The notes beneath the pieces were generated by a model. The model was not told the DNA's origin. It worked only from the letters and a program-made list of their open reading frames with translations, and did no database searches. Below, one piece after another: positions 9,018 through 63,106 of a stretch of 64,000 nucleotides of DNA (its first letter is position 1; every line of letters begins with the position of its first letter). A program made the position numbers and the translations under genes. The stretch is taken from the NCBI GenBank assembly GCA_016208415.1, contig JACQYB010000044.1, positions 1 to 64,000 of the forward strand, written 5' to 3'. The DNA comes from Betaproteobacteria bacterium. Its GTDB lineage: Bacteria > Pseudomonadota > Gammaproteobacteria > Burkholderiales > Rhodocyclaceae.

Positions 9018-9398
9018 ATGTCTTCCGACAGCGGCAGGACCCGCTGGGGCGTGCTGGCCGTCGTCATCGTGCTGCTGGCCGTGGCGCTGTTCGCCGCCTA
9101 CACCTGGATCGTGCTGTCCTGGAGTTTCTCCCAGGGCGAGCGCGCCGGCTACGTGCAGAAGTTCTCGCGCAAGGGCTGGGTGTGCAAGACCTGGGAGGGC
9201 GAGCTGGCCATGGTGAACATCCCCGGTGCGCTGACGGAGAAGTTCTACTTCACCGTGCGCGACGAGGCGGTGGCCGAACGCATCAACCAGTCCATGGGCA
9301 AGCGGGTGGCGCTGTCGTACGAGCAGCACGTGGGCGTGCCCAGCCGCTGCTTCGGCGAGACGGAGTACTTCGTGGTGGATGCGAAAGCGGTGGAATGA
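9018..9398 (+). CDS. Conserved single-pass membrane protein of unknown function
   Basis: 126 residues from the ATG at 9018, the first start that places the membrane segment near the N-terminus. Residues 9-31 (WGVLAVVIVLLAVALFAAYTWIV) are one hydrophobic helix. The outside part has WSFSQGERAGYVQKFS, GWVCKTWEGELAMV and YFTVRDEAVAERI, with two cysteines. I know this as a conserved hypothetical family of beta- and gammaproteobacteria; no function is established. It precedes a broken transporter gene by 69 bp. Confidence 0.75.
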   Translation: MSSDSGRTRWGVLAVVIVLLAVALFAAYTWIVLSWSFSQGERAGYVQKFSRKGWVCKTWEGELAMVNIPGALTEKFYFTVRDEAVAERINQSMGKRVALSYEQHVGVPSRCFGETEYFVVDAKAVE

Positions 9399-9467
9399 GC
9401 GTGCGCTGCCATCGCGCCGCCGGTGCATGAGGCAGGCGCGCACCATCTCGGGCGGCCCGGCGGCGAC

Positions 9468-10590
9468 ATGAGCGTGCGCCCCGCCGCGCTGGCGCCGCTG
9501 CTGGCGGCGCTGGCGGCCATCGGGCCGTTTTCCATCGACACCTACCTGCCGGCGATGCCCGCCATCGCCGCGTCGCTGGGTGCCACCCAGCTCCAGGTGC
9601 AGCAGACGCTCACCGCCTTCCTCGCCCCCTTCGCCGTCATGACGCTGTGGCACGGCGCGCTGTCCGACGGCTTCGGGCGCAGGCGGGTGATCCTGGCGAC
9701 GATGCTGCTGTTCGCCGCGGCCTCGGCCGTGTGCATGCTGGCGCCGCGCATCGAGGTGCTGTGGCTGGGCCGCGCGCTGCAGGGGATGACCGCGGGCGCG
9801 GGCACGGTAGTGGGCCGGGCGGTGATCCGCGACATGCTCGCGGGCGCCGCCGCCCAGCGCCTCATGGCCCACGTGACCGTCATGTTCGCGCTGGCGCCGG
9901 CGGTGGCGCCCATCCTCGGCGGCTGGATTTTCGTGGAACTCGGCTGGCGCGCCGTGTTCGGCTTCCTGACGCTGCTGGGCGTGGCGCTGTGGCTGCTGTG
10001 CCTGGCGCTGCTGCCGGAGACGCTGGCGCCGGAGCATCGCCAGAGCGTGCATCCGGTGTTCCTGCTGCGCTCCTACCGGGCGGTGTTTTCGCGCGGCGAG
10101 TTCCTGCAACTGGCGGGCACGCTGGCGCTCAACTTCGCCGGCTTCTTCGTCTATGTGCTGGCGGCGCCGGTGTTCCTCACTGTCGGGCCGCATGGCCGGC
10201 CGCATCACCCCGCGCCGCACCGCGGCCATCGGCTTTTCGATCATGGCGCTGGCCGCCGCGGCCAACCTCACCCTCAACCTGGCGACCACCCCCGGCGTGC
10301 CGTGGGCCATCCTGCCCGTTGCCGCCTACAACGTCGGCATGGCGCTGTCCCTGCCCAGCCTCACTCTCATGGTGCTGGACCTGTTCCCCAGGCAGCGCGG
10401 GCTGGTGTCGTCCTGCCAGAGCTTCACCCAGGGCATCACCAACTCCCTCACCGCCGCGGTGGTGGCGCCCCTGGCGTGGGCCTCGCCCCTGGCGATGGCG
10501 CTGGCCATGGGGGGCTTTCTCGGCACGGGGATGGTGCTGTTCGCCGTGTTCCGGCACCGGCATCCGGACAGCGGCTGGCGGATCGACTGA
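9468..10590 (+). pseudogene. Bcr/CflA-type MFS drug transporter with internal deletion and frameshift
   Basis: The first frame (from ATG 9468) reads as a Bcr/CflA exporter: SIDTYLPAMPAIAASLGATQ, GALSDGFGRRRVIL, GRALQGMTAGAGTVVGRAVIRD, through FFVYVLAAPVFLT near 10180. It then becomes nonsense. From about 10188 the +1 frame continues the protein: SGRMAGRITPRRTAAIGFSIM, to SGWRID and a stop at 10590. Family members carry roughly 25-35 residues between these two points, so a short deletion that is not a multiple of three has removed about one membrane helix. The product should be inactive unless the sequence is wrong. The start codon is supplied by a GGCGGCCCGGCGGCGACATG repeat end. Confidence 0.8.
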
Positions 10591-13373: not shown

Positions 13374-14636
13374 TTACAGCCGCGCCTTCAGGATGCGTGC
13401 CACCTCGGCGTCGCTCAGCAGCACGGGATTGGTCTTCATGCTCGATCCGCGGCAGTTTTCCACCACCCGGGGAATGTCCCCGGTGCACATGCCGAAGGCT
13501 GACAGGCGCGGCAGTTCGAGGCGCCGCGTCCAGTCCGCCAGCGTGGCCAGCAGCACGCCGCGGGCGGCGCCGTCGTCGAGGTGGGTGCGCGGGCGCAGCA
13601 GCCGGCCCGCCTGGGCGTAGCGCGCCAGCGCCGCGTTGTCGGGCTCGCGCGCCAGCATGGCGTCGATGTTGGCGCGGGTGCAGGCTTCCACCAGGGTGCC
13701 GCAGACCACGCCGTGGGGAATGGGGAAGAAGGCGCCCAGCGGCGAGGCCAGGCCATGCACGGCACCCAGTCCGGTCTGGGCGAGGCAGATGCCGGACAGC
13801 AGGGCGGCGTAGGCCATGTGGGCGCGGCCCTGCGACGCCGCCGCGCCACCCTCGTGCCATGCCAGCAGGCCATCGCGCACAGACGCCAGGCCGGATAGCG
13901 CCAGGGCGTCGGTGAAGGGGTTGGCGCGGCCGGAGACGAAGGACTCCAGCAACTGGGTGAAGGCGTCCATGCCGTCGGCGGCGATGAGATCCGGCGGGCA
14001 GGTGGCCAGCAGGTCCGGGTCCACCACGGCCCATCGGGCCACCAGTTGGTCGTCGCGGAAGGATTTCTTGAAGCCTTGCGGCCCGCACACCGACAGCACG
14101 GCGTTCTTCGTCGCCTCGGAGCCGGTGCCGGCGGTGGTGGGCACGGCGACGAAGGGCGTGGCCGGGCCGCGGTAGGGCAGTTCCGGGCCGACGCCTTCCA
14201 GATGGTCCATGACGGAATTGCCGGGGACGAGCAGCCCGGCCACGGCCTTGGCGGCGTCCAGCACGCTGCCGCCGCCGATGCCGACCACGGCGTCGATGCC
14301 GGCCGCGCGCAGCCGCGCCACCGCCTCGTCGACGAACTGCGGCGAGGGCTCCCCTTCGACGACCAGGTGTTCCCAGGACGGGCTGCGTGCCGCCAGTTCG
14401 TCGCGCAGCCACTGGCCGTGGGGCGACTCCATGAAGGAGCGGCGGCCAGTGACCAGCAGCAGGCGCTGTGGGAGCGGGCTTGACCGCGATTGTGGCGGCC
14501 GATATCTCGGGCAATCCTGCTCCCACGTGGCGAGCAGGTCGGGCAGCTTGCGCAGGCTGCCGGCGCCGAACTCGATGCGCGGCAGGCGGGTGATGGCAAA
14601 CGGCGCCACGGCGGCGGGGCGGGCCGGCGCGCTCAT
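13374..14636 (-). CDS. Iron-containing alcohol dehydrogenase with an in-frame REPIN insertion
   Basis: 420 residues of group III iron-dependent alcohol dehydrogenase. Visible are the NAD site GIGGGSVLDAAKAVAGLL, PTTAGTGSEATKNAV, and the metal-ligand region DGMDAFTQLLESFVS ... VHGLASPLGAFFPIPHGVVCG. Between KLPDLLATW and QRLLLVTGRRSF lies EQDCPRYRPPQSRSSPLP (residues about 37-57). It is encoded exactly by the REPIN-like repeat at 14468-14526 and is foreign to the family. The insertion sits in the N-terminal nucleotide-binding domain before the first Rossmann strand and may or may not be tolerated. The substrate is unknown. Confidence 0.88.
   Translation of the reverse strand: MSAPARPAAVAPFAITRLPRIEFGAGSLRKLPDLLATWEQDCPRYRPPQSRSSPLPQRLLLVTGRRSFMESPHGQWLRDELAARSPSWEHLVVEGEPSPQFVDEAVARLRAAGIDAVVGIGGGSVLDAAKAVAGLLVPGNSVMDHLEGVGPELPYRGPATPFVAVPTTAGTGSEATKNAVLSVCGPQGFKKSFRDDQLVARWAVVDPDLLATCPPDLIAADGMDAFTQLLESFVSGRANPFTDALALSGLASVRDGLLAWHEGGAAASQGRAHMAYAALLSGICLAQTGLGAVHGLASPLGAFFPIPHGVVCGTLVEACTRANIDAMLAREPDNAALARYAQAGRLLRPRTHLDDGAARGVLLATLADWTRRLELPRLSAFGMCTGDIPRVVENCRGSSMKTNPVLLSDAEVARILKARL
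14468..14526. repeat. REPIN-like inverted repeat inside the alcohol dehydrogenase gene
   Basis: 59 bp with arms GTGGGAGCGGGCTTGACCGC and, on the other side in reverse complement, GTGGGAGCAGGATTGCCCG. It is a diverged member of the family also found at 17996, 25155, 27151, 38347 and 41279. It is translated in frame as part of the dehydrogenase. Confidence 0.8.
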
Positions 14637-24940: not shown

Positions 24941-25154
24941 GGCGGTCTCCCGGCGATGTTGGTGGGCTTGCGCGGGATGGTGCAGCGCGTGGGGTGCCAT
25001 TCCCATTCTAGTGGAACGGTGGCCTGGTGGCAGGCAGGCGTAAGCCGTCGGGAGGAGGGCGGCGGCGCAGGAGCCTTGCGCGCACTGCTTGAGGACTACG
25101 CCAAAGGTGCCATTCCAGTTGGCGAAGACGAACGCCAACGGAATCCGGATGCCC

Positions 25155-25209
25155 GCGGGAGCGGGCTTGCCCGCGAAATGACCGTCCTCGCGGGCAAGCC
25201 CGCTCCCGC
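25155..25209. repeat. REPIN-like inverted repeat
   Basis: 55 bp, GCGGGAGCGGGCTTGCCCGCG on the left and the mirrored GCGGGCAAGCCCGCTCCCGC on the right. It lies between two minus-strand genes, 17 bp after the stop of the CHASE2 gene, where the hairpin could act as a transcription end or mRNA stabiliser. Confidence 0.88.
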
Positions 25210-25226
25210 AGGAATGTTGTTTCCCG

Positions 25227-27048: not shown

Positions 27049-27156
27049 GATACCCCCGGCCATTTATCGGCAGCGGGTGGGCAGCCTTGAATGCGTGAGG
27101 GAGATACCCTCGACCATTTATCGGCAGCGGGTGGGCAGCCTTGAATGCGTGAGGGA
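27049..27156. repeat. Tandem duplication of a 54-bp unit
   Basis: Two adjacent copies, 27049-27102 and 27103-27156, differ only at a few bases just after GATACCC. Forty-four bases from CCATTTATCGGCAGCG onward are identical. It has the look of a recent slippage or unequal-crossover event; it is not an array. Confidence 0.9.
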
Positions 27157-48540: not shown

Positions 48541-48611
48541 CATGATGACAACCCCCACGCTTCGCTGCCCCCCCGGGGGGGGGTGGATGTCGCCTTGGGG
48601 CGGCCCGGCGG
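48541..48611. repeat. Gene-junction repeat, copy 1 of a tandem pair
   Basis: A 71-bp unit reading CATGATGACAACCCCCACGC, TTCGCTGCC, a C8/G9 run pair, then GTGGATGTCGCCTTGG and GGCGGCCCGGCGGC. It is followed at once by a second copy. Relatives are at 51911-52051 and 63008-63080, with partial ends at 9449 and 56083. Confidence 0.85.
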
Positions 48612-48683
48612 CATGATGACAACCCCCACGCTTCGCTGCCCCCCGAGGGGGTGGATGTCGCCTTGGGGCGGCCCGGCGGCGAC
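48612..48683. repeat. Gene-junction repeat, copy 2, running to the start codon of the next gene
   Basis: Nearly identical to copy 1 but with CCCCCCGAGGGGG in the centre. Its end GGCGGCCCGGCGGCGACATG supplies the ATG (48684) of the phosphoribosyltransferase gene. Confidence 0.85.
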
Positions 48684-49241
48684 ATGACCGTCCGCGGCCA
48701 GCGCTTCTGCCTCTACGACGCGGGGCAACTGGAAGCCGTGCTCGATGCCATGGCCCACCAGACGGTGCGCTTCGTGCAACCGGGGCGCAAGGTAGTGCTG
48801 GTGGGCCTGCTGCGCCGCGGGGAACCGCTGGCCCGGGCGCTGCAGGGGCGTCTCGCGCGCCTGACCGGCGCCACCTTCGAGTATTACGGGCTGACGCTCA
48901 AGCGCTACGCCGACGATCTCACCCTCATCCACCCCGAAACACGCCTGACGGAAAACCCGCAGCTCGCCAGCGCGGATTTCTCCTCTGCGACGGTGATCGT
49001 CGTCGATGACGTGCTCTACCGCGGCTATTCGCTGCTGCGGGCGGTGGATTACCTGGCTCAGCTCGGCGCCGGCGAGATCCGCACCGTGGTGCTGGTGGAT
49101 CGCGGCGCGGAGAAGCTGCCGGTGCGTGCCGACGTCGCCGGGGTGCGCCTGGACGTGGCGCCGGGCGATGTCGTCGAATGCCACGTTCCGCCCTACGAGG
49201 CGGATCTGCGCATCGAGTTGCTGCGCCCCGCGCGGGGCTGA
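48684..49241 (+). CDS. Phosphoribosyltransferase, PyrR-like
   Basis: 185 residues. The PRPP-binding loop is VIVVDDVLYRGYSLLRAV; the N-terminal substrate part has VVLVGLLRRGEPLARALQGRL and a central EYYGLTLKRYADD. The domain resembles the PyrR/uracil-type PRTases, but the acidic motif and length leave open whether it is catalytic or regulatory. The start codon lies at the end of a repeat unit and has no clear Shine-Dalgarno site. It ends 19 bp from the convergent murI stop. Confidence 0.82.
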   Translation: MTVRGQRFCLYDAGQLEAVLDAMAHQTVRFVQPGRKVVLVGLLRRGEPLARALQGRLARLTGATFEYYGLTLKRYADDLTLIHPETRLTENPQLASADFSSATVIVVDDVLYRGYSLLRAVDYLAQLGAGEIRTVVLVDRGAEKLPVRADVAGVRLDVAPGDVVECHVPPYEADLRIELLRPARG

Positions 49242-50734: not shown

Positions 50735-51913
50735 TCAGGAGAGCGCCAGCGCCGCCTTGGCCATGACCCGCTCTTCGTCCGTGGGGATCACCCACAGGGC
50801 GACCGGGCTGTCGGGAGGGGCGATGGAGCGGGCGCCCGGGGAGGCGGCCTCGTTGGCCCGGGCATCGATGCGCACACCCGCCCAGCCCAGCAGGCGGGCG
50901 ATCTTCTCGCGCACCGGCGCGGCGTTCTCGCCGATGCCGCCGGTGAACACCAGCGCGTCCAGCCCGCCGATCTTCACCGCCAGCCCGGCGATGTGGGATG
51001 CCGCCTTGTCGGCGAACAGGTCGATGGCCTGGGCGGCGTGTTCGTTGCCGCCGGCGGCGGCCTCCAGCAGCACGCGCATGTCCGGGGAAAGGCCGGATAC
51101 GCCCAGCAGGCCGGACTCCTGGTACAGCAGCGCGGCGATCTGCGCCGCGCCCATGCCCTGCTGCATCAGGTACAGCACCACGCCCGGATCCAGGGAGCCG
51201 GTGCGTGTGCCCATCATCAGGCCATCGACGGCGGTGAAGCCCATGGTGCTGGCCTGGGACCGGCAGTCCAGCATGGCGCAGGCGGAGGCGCCGTTGCCCA
51301 GGTGGGCCACCACCACCCGGCCCCAGGCACGCGCACCCAGATGCTGCGGCAGCACCGAGGCCACGTACTCGTAGGACAGGCCATGGAAGCCGTAGGCCTT
51401 GACGCCTTCGTCGGCGAAGTGGCGCGGCAGCGGCAGCATGCGCCGCCACGCCGGCTGGGTGGCATGGAAGGCGGTGTCGAAACAGGCGATCTGGGGCGTG
51501 CCGGGATAGGCGGCCCGCATGGCCCGCAGTCCCGCCAGGTTGTGGGGTTGATGCAGCGGCGCGAGACGGGTGAAGGCTTCCAGCCGCCCGAGCAGCGCCG
51601 CATCCACGCGCACCGGGCGGACGAATTCCTCGCCGCCATGCACCACGCGATGGGCGCAGGCGCGCAGTCCGCCGGCGGGCAGTCGTCCCGCCAGCATGGC
51701 GATGCAGTCGGCGTGGCTGCGCCCGGCCACGACCTCGTCGACCAGCGCCTCGCCCTCCTGACCGCGCATGCGCAGGCGCCCGTCCGCCAGGCCCACCCCG
51801 TCGAAGCCGCCGGCCAGCACAGGTTCCAGGGCCGCGCCGCGAGCCTCGAACAGCTTGAACTTGATGCTCGACGAGCCGGCGTTGAGGGTCAGGATCAGGT
51901 CGTGGTGACTCAT
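50735..51913 (-). CDS. ackA: Acetate kinase
   Basis: 392 residues from the ATG at 51913. Signatures: LTLNAGSSSIKFKLFE at the start, HRVVHGGEEF, CFDTAFHATQPAW, GYHG-like YGFHGLSYEYV, MGFTAVDGLMMGTRTGSLDPG and VFTGGIGENAAPVRE. The enzyme interconverts acetyl phosphate plus ADP with acetate plus ATP. It follows the pta-like gene in the same direction. The 138 bp between them consist wholly of two repeat units, the second of which provides this start codon. Confidence 0.95.
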   Translation of the reverse strand: MSHHDLILTLNAGSSSIKFKLFEARGAALEPVLAGGFDGVGLADGRLRMRGQEGEALVDEVVAGRSHADCIAMLAGRLPAGGLRACAHRVVHGGEEFVRPVRVDAALLGRLEAFTRLAPLHQPHNLAGLRAMRAAYPGTPQIACFDTAFHATQPAWRRMLPLPRHFADEGVKAYGFHGLSYEYVASVLPQHLGARAWGRVVVAHLGNGASACAMLDCRSQASTMGFTAVDGLMMGTRTGSLDPGVVLYLMQQGMGAAQIAALLYQESGLLGVSGLSPDMRVLLEAAAGGNEHAAQAIDLFADKAASHIAGLAVKIGGLDALVFTGGIGENAAPVREKIARLLGWAGVRIDARANEAASPGARSIAPPDSPVALWVIPTDEERVMAKAALALS

Positions 51914-51981
51914 GTCGCCGCCGGGCCGTCCCAAGGTGACATGCACCCCCCCGGGGGGCAGCGAAGCGTGGGGGCACTCAC
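51911..51981. repeat. Gene-junction repeat next to ackA
   Basis: 71-bp unit, minus-strand sense, ending GGCGGCGACATG at the ackA start (51913). The centre is CCCCCCGGGGGG. Its neighbour at 51982-52051 is nearly identical. Confidence 0.88.
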
Positions 51982-52051
51982 CATGTCGCCGCCGGGCCGC
52001 CCCAAGGTGACATGCACCCCCTCGGGGGGCAGCGAAGCGTGGGGGCACTCA
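51982..52051. repeat. Gene-junction repeat overlapping the pta stop codon
   Basis: 70-bp unit, minus-strand sense, beginning TGAGTGCCCCCACGCTTCGC; its TGA is the stop of the pta-like gene (52049-52051). The centre is CCCCCCGAGGGGG. Confidence 0.88.
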
Positions 52052-53458
52052 TCCCGCGCCTTCGTCCTGGCTGGCGACGATGAAGCGCGTGACGGCGCAG
52101 GAGGCGGCCCGGGTGGCGGGGCTGTCGGAACGCGAGGTGAGCACGAAGGGCACGCGCAGGCCCAGGCCCACCCCGGCGCAGGAGGCATCGGCCAGGTGTT
52201 CGAGCTGCTTGGCAAGCATGTTGCCGGATTCGAGGTCCGGCGCCACCAGGATGTCCGCCCGGCCGGCGACGTCGCTGACGATGCCCTTGATGCGTGCGGC
52301 CTCCAGGCTCACGGCGTTGTCGAAGGCCAGGGGTCCGTCGACGATCCCGCCCTTGATCTGGCCGCGTGCCGCCATCAGCGTGAGCATGGCGGCATCGACG
52401 GTGGACTGCATTTTCGGGTTGACGGTCTCGATGGCCGAGAGTATCGCCACCCGCGGCAATTCCACGCCGAAGCGGTGGGCGAAATCGATGGCGTTCTGCA
52501 CGATGTCCATCTTGGCCTCGATGTCGGGGGCTGGATTCACCGCCCCGTCGGTGATGAACAGGGTGCGCTCGTAGCGCGGCACATCCATGACGAAGACGTG
52601 GGACACGCGCCGCCCGGTGCGCAGCCCCACGCTGCGGTCCAGCAGGGCCGAGAGAAAGCGGTCGGTGTGCAGGCTGCCCTTCATGGGGAAGCGCGCCTTG
52701 CCCTGCGCCAGCAGTTGGGCGCAGGCGGCGGCCGCGGTGGTTTCGTGGCCGTCGGTGGCGTGGATGCGCGCCCCGTGCAGGTCGAGGCTCTCGCGCTCGG
52801 CGATGGCGCGGATGGTTGCCTCCGGCCCGCACAGGATGGGGTCGATGATGCCGGCCTGGAGCGCCTCCAGCGCCCCGCCCAGGGAGGTCGGGTCGCAGGG
52901 CCAGGCCACCGCCACGGCTGCCGGCGGCAGGTCGCGCGCCAGGTCCATCAGGCGCTGGTAGCGTAGCGCCCGGTCGGTCACCGTCACCTCCGGCAGGTCC
53001 ACCTGCGCCCGCACCACCTTGCGTCGCGGCGCCACCACGCGCGCCACGCCGTCCACCACGGGGTGGCCGTCCTGGTTGGCGGCATCGCAGTGGAAGACCA
53101 CCTGATGCGTGTCGGGGTGCTTCTCGGTCACCCGCACCGTCACGCGAAGTTCGTCGCCCACCATCACCGGCCGCAAAAAGCGGAAGGATTGGGACACGTA
53201 TTCCGTCCCCGCTCCGGGAAAGTCGTTGCCGAGTACGGCGGAGAACAGCGAACCCGCCCACAGGCTGTGGGCCACCACGGTGGAGCGGCCGCAGGTGCGG
53301 GCGAAATCGGCGTCGAAATGGGTGGGATTGACGTCGCCGCTGGCGGCGGCAAAGAGCTGGATGTCTTCCTCGCGCAGCCGACGCGTGATGGTGTGGACGT
53401 CGCCGATGGCGATGTCGTCAAAGGGATGGTTCTCGATGAGATCCTCGAGCTTGCCCAC
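52049..53458 (-). CDS. Bifunctional MaoC-type enoyl-CoA hydratase / phosphate acetyl(butyryl)transferase
   Basis: 469 residues from a GTG at 53458, chosen because AAGGA lies 7 bp upstream; an ATG nine codons earlier is possible. Residues 1-150 are a MaoC hot-dog domain (EEDIQLFAAASGDVNPTHFDADFA, VAHSLWAGSLFSAVLGNDFPGAGTEYVSQSFRF). The rest is a phosphotransacetylase (YQRLMDLARDLPP, GGALEALQAGIIDPILCGP, FITDGAVNPAPD, GGIVDGPLAFDNAV, VAPDLESGNMLAKQL). With ackA it can turn acyl-CoA into carboxylate and ATP. Confidence 0.92.
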   Translation of the reverse strand: MGKLEDLIENHPFDDIAIGDVHTITRRLREEDIQLFAAASGDVNPTHFDADFARTCGRSTVVAHSLWAGSLFSAVLGNDFPGAGTEYVSQSFRFLRPVMVGDELRVTVRVTEKHPDTHQVVFHCDAANQDGHPVVDGVARVVAPRRKVVRAQVDLPEVTVTDRALRYQRLMDLARDLPPAAVAVAWPCDPTSLGGALEALQAGIIDPILCGPEATIRAIAERESLDLHGARIHATDGHETTAAAACAQLLAQGKARFPMKGSLHTDRFLSALLDRSVGLRTGRRVSHVFVMDVPRYERTLFITDGAVNPAPDIEAKMDIVQNAIDFAHRFGVELPRVAILSAIETVNPKMQSTVDAAMLTLMAARGQIKGGIVDGPLAFDNAVSLEAARIKGIVSDVAGRADILVAPDLESGNMLAKQLEHLADASCAGVGLGLRVPFVLTSRSDSPATRAASCAVTRFIVASQDEGAG

Positions 53459-54026
53459 GTGGTTGTCCTTTCCATTTCTTGGCATCGGGTGCGCCATTCC
53501 GGGTGACGGCGGCGCTCTGCGGCCGAACGCGGCTTCAGGCGTCTGCGCCCGGCCCCGAGGCCACGCCGTCATGCCTGTGGGCATGCTCGGTGCGGGTCCC
53601 GCGGCCGAGGAAGTGTCACCTCCGAGTTACGGCAGCGCGGCACCCGACTTGAGATGCCGAAGGCGTTGTGCACTGCCCCAGGCGCCCATTGGAACCGTAA
53701 ATGGTGCACCGCGTCAAGCAACGTGGGCAATTCGAAGCGGCTGCGGTGATGCCCCGCCTGCGGCGGGCGCGTCTCGCGGAAGGGTAAGTCGCCGAGCAAA
53801 AACAACTTGAACATTGTCCATCTTGCATATGAGTGCCATGCGGCGTTGCCAAGACGCTTGTGTGGCTCGCCACACGGCGCGTCTTGGCGCCTTGCCTGGC
53901 ATCTCGTCTGCAAGCGGCCAATTGTTCAAATTGTGTTTCCTCGGCTCCCAAGGGAAGTGAGACTCGGGGCGAGAAGGGTGGGCCGACGTCCGCCCCTCCT
54001 GCCCGATGAATCAGGCAGGTGCGCCA
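53459..54026. other. 568-bp region with long palindrome, no certain gene
   Basis: Open frames are short and show no family. The middle part, 53784-53950, is a large imperfect palindrome described separately. A lesser hairpin CCTGCC...GGCAGG lies at about 53998-54020. Promoter signals for the pta-ackA operon should be in 53459-53780 but are not obvious. Confidence 0.5.
53784..53950. repeat. Long imperfect palindrome, MITE-like or structured RNA
   Basis: The core 53848-53888 is GCCAAGACGC, TT, GTGTGGC, TC, GCCACAC, GGC, GCGTCTTGGC: two perfect nested stems. Outside it, about 45 bp on each side still pair imperfectly (AACTTGAACA on the left, TTGTTCAAATTG on the right), and GCCGAG recurs at both outer ends. 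No reading frame explains it. Confidence 0.65.
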
Positions 54027-60560: not shown

Positions 60561-62018
60561 ATGTTTCGAGATGCCATGTCCTCGATGAACGCCATCCCCC
60601 GCGCCCTTGTCCTGGCGCTCGCCGCAATCCTGTGCCTGCTCGTCGCGGCCACGGCACGGGCCCAGATCCGCGTACCCCAGCAGGATCCTGCTGCGGGAGC
60701 GCCGCGCCTCGGTAGCCCGCCCGCTGCCCGCCCCGTTCCTGCGGCGCCCGCGGCCGACACCGCTCCCCCTGCCGCCACGCCCGCGGCCGAAGCGGTTCCG
60801 GCCGACCGCATCGTGGCGGTGGTCAACAACGAGGTCATCACCGCGAAGGAACTGCGCGCCCGCGTCGGCGTGGCGGAGCAGCAACTGCGGCGCCAGAACA
60901 CGCCCCTGCCGGCACGGGAACAACTGGAGCAGCAGTTGCTGGAGCGCCTGATCCTGGAGAAGGTGCAAATGCAGTACGCCGCCGAGACCGGCCTGAGCGT
61001 GGACGACGCCCAGATCGATCGCGCGGTGGCGCGCATTGCCGAGAACAACCGCATGGATCCGGGCACTTTCCGCCAAGCGCTGGAACGCGACGGCGTGCCG
61101 TGGCACAAGTTCCGCACGGAACTGCGCACCGAGATGGTTCTGAGCCGTCTGCGGGAGCGGGAGATCGACAGCCGCGTCATGGTGTCCGACGCCGAGGCGG
61201 AGAACTTCCTCGCCGATCCCGAACGCGCAGGCATGGCCAACTCCGAGTTCCACGTCCAGCACATCCTGGTGCGGGTGCCCGAGCAGGCCGGCCCGGAGCA
61301 GGTGGCGCGCCTCAAGGCCAAGGCCGACGAGGCCCGGGCCAAGGTGGCCGGCGGCGAGGACTTCGCCCGCACCGCCGCCGCCTTCTCCGACGCCCCCGAC
61401 GCCCTGCAGGGCGGCGACCTGGGCTGGCGCACGCCCGAGCGCCTGCCGGGGCTGTTCGTCGAATTGGTGGCCGGCCTCAAGCCGGGCAACACCAGCGCGG
61501 TGGTGCGCAGCCCCGCCGGTTTCCACGTCGTGCGCCTGGCGGCACGACGCGGCGGACTGGGCGCGGGCGAGAAGGTGCAGCAGACGCGGGTGCGCCACAT
61601 CCTCCTCAAGAACAACCAGGTCCTGTCCGACGCCGACATCCGGCAGCGGCTGACGGGACTGCGGGAACGCCTGCAGCATGGCGCCGATTTCGCCGAACTG
61701 GCGCAGCGCAACAGCCAGGACGGCAGCGCCGCCAAGGGGGGCGAACTGGGGTGGATCTACCCGGGCGATACCGTGCCCGACTTCGAGCGCGCCATGGACA
61801 AGCTGCCCGTGGGCGAGATCAGCGAGCCGGTGCGCTCGCCCTTCGGCTGGCACCTCATCCAGGTGCTGGAGCGGCGCGTGGCCGACGCCTCGGAGGAGCG
61901 CCGGCTGCTGGTGGCCAAGCAGGCGCTGCGCGAACGCAAGGCCGAGGAGGCCTACCAGGACTGGCTACGCCAGTTGCGCGACCGGGCCTACGTCGAACAC
62001 CGGCTGGAGGAGCGTTGA
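60561..62018 (+). CDS. surA: Periplasmic chaperone and peptidyl-prolyl isomerase SurA
   Basis: 485 residues. A signal peptide ([21 protein letters not shown]) leads to a Pro/Ala linker and the SurA N-domain ([21 protein letters not shown] ... [19 protein letters not shown]). Two parvulin domains follow: [15 protein letters not shown] ... [15 protein letters not shown] and [14 protein letters not shown] ... [20 protein letters not shown]. It escorts outer membrane proteins, LptD among them. A start five codons on (MSSMN) is also possible. Confidence 0.97.
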
Positions 62019-63106
62019 CGGCCGCGGCCCCGGACCGCGTCCCGGTCATTGCCGTCACTGCCGGCGAACCCGCCGGCATCGGCCCGGAGTTGTGCCTGCA
62101 ACTGGCCTTGCGGCGCGCGTGGCCGGCGCGCCTGGTGGTACTGGGCGACGCGGCGCTACTGCAGGAGACGGCCACGCGCCTGGGCCTGCACCTGGCGCTG
62201 CGGGACTACCGTCCCGACAACGCCGGCCCACTTCCGGGCACGCTGGAAGTCCTGCACCTGCCGCTGGCCGCACCCGCCACCCCCGGCCGCCTCGACCCCG
62301 CCAATGCCCGCCACGTACTGGCGCTGCTCGACCGCGCGGCGGACGGCTGCCTGGCCGGCGAGTTCGACGCCATGGTCACCGCGCCGGTGCACAAGAGCGT
62401 CATCAACGACGCCGGCATCGCCTTCTCCGGCCACACAGAATACCTGGCCAGCCGCACCGGCACGGCGCGGGTGGTGATGATGCTCATGGCGCCGCGCGCC
62501 GGCGGCTGGCTAAGGGTGGCCCTGGCCACCACCCACCTGCCGCTGCGCGCCGTGGCCGACGCCATCACCCCCGACAGCCTGGAGCAGACGCTGCGCATCC
62601 TCGACCTCGGCCTGCGTGAGCGCTTCGGACTGGCGGCGCCCCACATCCTGGTGGCCGGCCTCAACCCCCACGCCGGCGAGGGCGGGCACCTCGGGCGGGA
62701 GGAAATCGAAGTCATCATCCCCGTGCTGGAGAAGCTGAGCGCCGAGGGCATGCACCTCGCCGGGCCACTGCCGGCCGACACTCTGTTCGTCCCGCAGCAG
62801 CTCGACCGCGCCGACTGCGTGCTCGCCATGTACCACGACCAGGGCCTGCCGGTGCTCAAGCACGTGGGTTTCGAGCACGGCGTCAATGTCACCGTGGGCC
62901 TGCCCATCATCCGCACCTCCCCCGACCACGGCACCGCGCTGGACCTGGCCGGCAGCGGCCGCGCCGACTGCGGCAGCATGGCGGCGGCCATGGAGGTGGC
63001 GCTGTCCATGGCGCGCGCCGGGCCGCCCCATGGCGACATGCGCCCCCTCGGGGGGCAGAGAAGCGTGGGGGTCCTCGCCATGGTGCGCGCCGGCGCCGCC
63101 CCATGA
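62015..63106 (+). CDS. pdxA: 4-hydroxythreonine-4-phosphate dehydrogenase PdxA, with repeat-encoded C-terminal tail
   Basis: 363 residues from a TTG at 62015 that overlaps the surA stop; GGAGG lies 5 bp before it. PdxA motifs: [101 protein letters not shown]. The enzyme makes the ring precursor of pyridoxal phosphate. The final 30 or so residues ([22 protein letters not shown]) come from a reversed gene-junction repeat and are not part of the family. Confidence 0.96.
63008..63080. repeat. Gene-junction repeat, reversed, inside the pdxA 3' end
   Basis: Read on the minus strand it has CCCCCACGCTTCTCTGCC, CCCCGAGGGGG, CGCATGTCGCC and GGGGCGGCCCGGCG, matching the units at 48541 and 51911. It stays open in the pdxA frame. 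Confidence 0.8.

Follow-up and report, generated by a model that had tools for sequence, protein, structure and literature searches.

The pta-ackA spacer of a Rhodocyclaceae bacterium: a tandem pair of hairpin repeats that appear to be mobile

The window analysed here is a 64-kb stretch of a Rhodocyclaceae genome in which pta lies upstream of ackA on the minus strand. Sequence comparison of the spacer between them (51911-52051) revealed two 70-nt units that are 97% identical and lie 71 nt apart from start to start, confirming that the whole spacer consists of two copies of one repeat, as an earlier note on this sequence had proposed. Read on the minus strand, the spacer runs from the pta TGA (52051-52049) to the ackA ATG (51913-51911), and the coordinates bear out that the outer copy opens with the stop codon and the inner copy closes with the start codon. 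The features of the locus are the following.

52049-53485, minus strand: pta, the upstream gene, encoding a bifunctional enoyl-CoA hydratase/phosphate acetyltransferase of the PRK08190 type; its TGA lies within the outer unit
51982-52051, minus strand: outer unit, starting with the pta TGA, then CCCCC, ACGCTTCGCTG and the GC hairpin CCCCCCGAGGGGG
52014-52006, 52005-51991 and 51990-51982, minus strand: 9-nt arm, tip and second 9-nt arm of the outer unit, the last ending in CATG
51911-51980, minus strand: inner unit, whose final three bases (51913-51911) are the ackA ATG
51943-51935, 51934-51920 and 51919-51911, minus strand: arm, tip and second arm of the inner unit
50735-51913, minus strand: ackA, the downstream gene, encoding an acetate/propionate kinase; its ATG comes from the inner unit

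The 20-mer GGCGGCCCGGCGGCGACATG was found five times at up to 3 mismatches, compared to 0.12 times in shuffled sequences. Three further copies of the repeat lie in the window.

48545-48686, plus strand: second two-unit array, ending in the start ATG of a pyrR-like gene (48684-49241)
9395-9470, plus strand: degenerate or truncated copy with only GGGCGGCCCGGCGGCGACATG (9450-9470), the last ~21 nt of the canonical unit
about 63011-63083, minus strand: single unit within the 3' end of pdxA (62015-63106), in frame and in the orientation opposite to the genes

The array at 48545-48686 has no coding stop at its left end. The copy at 9395-9470 is flanked by two occurrences of ATGAGCGTGCGC, 73 bp apart, the second of which opens a gene for a Bcr/CflA transporter (ATG at 9468). 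The suggestion that the same repeat end supplies the starts of both genes thus held for 48684, where the ATG is real and the array again has two units, and only for the terminal bases at 9468. The count of four contexts in the window had missed the copy in pdxA. PdxA models stop at residue 333-335 of 363, leaving a C-terminal tail that the element encodes. No described RNA family in Rfam matched within the window.

The anatomy of the unit was read from 131 units in 88 arrays of this genome and from about 40 loci of other genomes. Each unit consists of a left end resembling (ATG)TGA, then CCCCCACGCT, a spacer and CGCTGCCCCCC-GA-GGGGG, followed by the tip TTGGGGCGGCCCGGC between two complementary 9-nt arms. 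Unit length is mostly 68-72 bp in this genome, and relatives have units of about 81-85 bp. The first hairpin is GC-rich (CCCCCC-GA-GGGGG). In the second, the 15-nt tip is nearly invariant, and its string TTGGGRCGGCCCGGC is carried on a 9-bp stem that is variable in sequence yet covarying. Nine pairs covary, with several pair types at each position, and pairing ends at pair 10. Outside this genome, pairs 3 to 9 were Watson-Crick in 22-36 of 40 loci, compared to 10-16 when the right arms were shuffled. Sulfurisoma alone gave a mean of 7.6 of 9 stem pairs, compared to 5.9 after shuffling (maximum 6.6 in 5000 shuffles). The combination of a covarying stem and a fixed tip suggests a candidate hairpin-recognising protein.

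Outside this genome 18 stem mismatches were G-U and 19 were A-C, and in this genome A-C (37) exceeded G-U (18; p=0.014). Since G-U is not in excess over A-C, the covariation does not look like selection on the mRNA strand, and a stem acting as a DNA-level hairpin rather than as mRNA structure would fit better. This bears on the earlier proposal that the GC hairpin could control the downstream gene. The unit might be a cis-acting RNA element, kept for tuning the downstream gene, whose hairpin hides the start codon or keeps coupled genes apart. Consistent with this, the stem covaries, the predicted leader structure has the ackA AUG in a paired region, and some Variovorax sites have an AGGAGG-like sequence in the right arm before the start. 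However, the predicted folding of the ackA and pyrR leaders was on a par with that of shuffled sequences (z 0.66, -0.43 and 0.50), and the mismatch counts, equal outside this genome, are in this genome opposite to what selection on the mRNA strand would leave. Many copies also lie inside genes or after stops, and the genes concerned are unrelated (hemW, waaA, ntrC, pncC and metW). We therefore regard RNA control as unlikely and the case for translational control by the unit as weak; control by the GC hairpin was not upheld.

A search for the core ACGCTTCGCTGCCCCCC at up to 2 mismatches gave 154 occurrences in the 3.85-Mb genome and none for a reversed-pattern control, which is far beyond chance. 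The figure is a lower bound because the core pattern missed a further subtype (L356 and L357, on C15 and C44 of this genome), which has the longer spacer typical of other genera. Placement relative to genes was read from about 60 stretches that hold most arrays, the fetched copies being a subset of the 154, with genes called by our own hexamer model rather than by a standard annotator. Two main subfamilies were distinguished. Subfamily A has an arm ending in CATG and a period of mostly 71, also 72 and 68, bp; subfamily B has the arm GGCGCCGGGGG and a period of 69 bp (23 codons).

Among 40 non-edge arrays of subfamily A, 13 had a stop on the left and a start on the right, 6 a start only and 9 a stop only, and 4 were intragenic. 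In a strict test of the arrays with an ATG in the right arm, 13 of 39 ended at a true gene start, compared to 4.2% of 9225 background ATGs (p=3e-9). A coding stop lay within 38 nt of the left end in 19 of these 39, compared to 1.6% of random positions (p=2e-24), and nine had both. The comparison of genomic copies with chance start codons, which the earlier note had called for, came out in favour of an association with starts for these arrays. In contrast, 18 of 23 subfamily B arrays were intragenic, in both orientations, compared to 4 of 40 in A (p=6e-8). The idea of an element that is aimed at translation junctions, or persists there, is accordingly borne out for subfamily A but not for the whole family. 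Most copies of the family lie away from starts, yet their placement is non-random.

The insertions inside genes preserve the reading frame. All 18 intragenic tandem periods were multiples of 3, compared to 10 of 25 elsewhere (p=4e-5). Pfam matches in this genome are broken at the unit in an acyl-CoA dehydrogenase middle domain (L039) and in a GGDEF domain (L046). The phosphoglycerate kinase (pgk) of Acidovorax temperans pEP1 has about 24 extra residues in frame in the PPMLRCPPEGGATALGRPGGGW region, placed between the segments that align with residues 27 and 29 of the solved kinase 6i06. At L048:1988-6227, two adjacent genes, one of them cytochrome-c-like, contain eight B units in three arrays, all in frame. 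Preservation of the frame is what would be expected if insertion were random and selection alone shaped the distribution, junctions and in-frame sites being merely tolerated. Another observation on the units concerns an insertion sequence, found within the GC hairpin at four sites, mostly near contig ends (L043:1-160, L073, L077:4280-5540 and L082:2465-2568). It has the end CATAAGCGCTAACATAA and, in L077, a 405-aa transposase-like ORF, tentatively taken to be IS4-like. The hairpin seems to be its preferred site.

Comparison with related genomes bears on how the units arrived. The relatives' pgpA-pncC, rdgB-hemW, waaC-waaA and metX-metW junctions are for the most part overlaps or gaps of a few bases, without the element. 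A reversed partial unit was seen at the metX-metW junction of one relative (L273 of G001). The AckA relatives in the genome collection, at most ~60% identical, were too distant, and no close empty site for pta-ackA was found there. The unit bridges stop and start at 8 of 21 Sulfurisoma loci, with 4 more ending at a start, and at 6 of 20 Variovorax loci. Nine Sulfurisoma junction loci were set against genomes of the same genus, mostly at 84-94% protein identity. The aligned site mostly lacked the unit; the insertion at L424 was shared, and a degenerate copy was present at L419. On this sequence comparison, the unit at these junctions is to be read as inserted rather than ancestral.

The flanks of the inserted units suggest a target. 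ATGG or ATGA is present on both sides of the unit at six or more Sulfurisoma sites; the filled sites L376 and L372, for example, read TAAATGG-unit-ATGGAAATC and GGCAATGA-unit-ATGACGAAA. At L375 and L382 the flanking ATGG is not the native start of the gene, suggesting that it serves as a sequence target rather than as a start codon. This target motif, together with the exact ATG or TGA adjacency in three genera, argues against purely random insertion. In favour of random insertion, ATGA stops were just moderately enriched (11 of 22, compared to 79 of 321; p=0.02). Random insertion followed by selection is thus a serious contender, to which we give somewhat less than even weight. In a permutation test the flanks matched upstream of the ATG (p=0.0002), and downstream they matched no better than permuted pairs (p=0.20). 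Duplication of ATGR is likely rather than proven, because the upstream match may partly consist of remnants of earlier units.

The empty sites also bear on the origin of the arms. If the 9-nt arms were templated from the target at each insertion, the left as reverse complement of the right, the stem would covary without selection. In keeping with this, the 21 Sulfurisoma loci show 17 different right arms, each paired with its own partner, and the stem length is fixed at 9. However, the native bases before the ATG differ from the arm at L372 (CGGCA, compared to GGCGCC) and L376 (CATAA, compared to GGAGCC), so the arm travels with the element. Templating is largely refuted by these sites, and we consider it very improbable.

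Collectively, these results suggest that the pta-ackA spacer is probably a tandem pair of a non-autonomous, mobile-looking betaproteobacterial hairpin repeat that was inserted at the gene junction and then duplicated. A copy would have landed where the pta stop and the ackA start shared an ATGA-type overlap, and tandem duplication would have followed. Insertion of an A unit keeps the upstream stop and the downstream start because its right arm terminates in ATG, and ATGA or TGA usually stands at its left end; the empty sites at other loci showed both signals kept. More generally, copies would spread as DNA, the hairpin tip probably being recognised by a hairpin-binding enzyme. Insertion would open next to ATGA or ATGG, with duplication of this ATGR target, and arrays would grow in tandem. 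Selection would then spare A copies that fell at gene junctions and B copies whose 69-bp unit keeps the reading frame. If ackA translation is affected at all, by a start codon buried in the hairpin or by loss of the native leader, this would be incidental. We put forward more tentatively, and with some doubt, that mobility is site-specific and aimed at gene junctions, with an ATGA/ATGG target, an ATG carried in the arm that regenerates both translation signals, and a putative enzyme reading the tip.

Subfamily A at stop/start junctions and subfamily B in frame often lie where the repeat does least damage. A repeat that bridges junctions without losing stop or start, and that adds in-frame peptide segments to conserved proteins, makes it possible to test how selfish DNA persists in densely packed bacterial genomes. 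Annotation is also affected, as the starts of ackA, hemW, waaA and ntrC in this genome fall within the repeat.

Relatives of the unit are common throughout Betaproteobacteria. Within the family of this genome, 165 of 299 genomes had matches to the unit; UbiD identities of 80-84% to Sulfuritalea, Azovibrio, Dechloromonas, Azonexus, Thiobacillus and Nitrosomonas suggest that this family is Rhodocyclaceae. Genomes with matches include Variovorax, Sulfurisoma, Ideonella, Rubrivivax and Paraburkholderia, and plasmid matches were found in Acidovorax, Azoarcus, Rhodoferax and Burkholderia. Because the query of the order-level survey took in some 44 bases of a conserved gene, its tally of 116 genomes was dropped and only within-repeat matches were used. 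The phage collection and the two gammaproteobacteria checked, Azotobacter and Halomonas, held no relatives of the unit, and a literature search by motif string returned no paper.

By its published description, the Beta-proteobacterial repeat element (BRE; Hot et al. 2011, PMC3110155) is probably the kind to which the family belongs. Its reported hosts, Comamonadaceae, Alcaligenaceae and Azoarcus, overlap in range with those of our unit. Both are GC-rich, tandem, mostly intergenic and variable in copy number, with tens of copies per genome, and in both some copies overlap ORF ends and some lie wholly within coding sequence. BRE is 75-91 bp in Bordetella (PMC3110155), compared to the mostly 68-72 bp here and about 81-85 bp in relatives. 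The BRE paper proposes no structure, stop/start bridging or function (PMC3110155). BRE identity was also sought through lexA, and the lexA loci of nine f4 genomes held no unit.

Rickettsia palindromic elements (RPE) are short palindromes in frame inside unrelated protein genes (PMC10969869). Subfamily B and the Acidovorax pgk copy resemble them in being in frame within protein genes, and the insertions in pgk, L039 and L046 likewise fall in conserved domains. RPE are about 150 bp; our units occur in tandem, and subfamily A is mostly intergenic. The RPE sequence is presumably other than that of our unit. ERIC and MITE elements are similarly dispersed and non-autonomous, with a probable short target duplication and occasional intragenic copies, and ATGR lies on both sides of the unit at several loci supported by empty sites. 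Unlike them, the unit has no terminal inverted repeats at its ends, long or otherwise, its inverted repeat being the 9-bp hairpin at one end only.

REP and BIME palindromes, associated with RAYT, are likewise short, high-copy hairpins in gene junctions, but our unit differs in its stem, which is free in sequence yet covaries beneath a conserved tip. That the unit is a REP element moved by RAYT was not supported: no unit was present in the fetched flanks of 14 Y1 (RAYT) transposase loci (PF01797) in 10 genomes, and this search yielded no mobilising enzyme. The window also contains REP-like palindromes resembling the Pseudomonas type (GTGGGAGCGGGCTTGCCCGCGA) at 14465, 17994, 25140-25224, 27148, 38344 and 41276, which are unrelated to the hairpin unit. 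One of them adjoins two 54-bp tandem copies, 96% identical, at 27049-27156.
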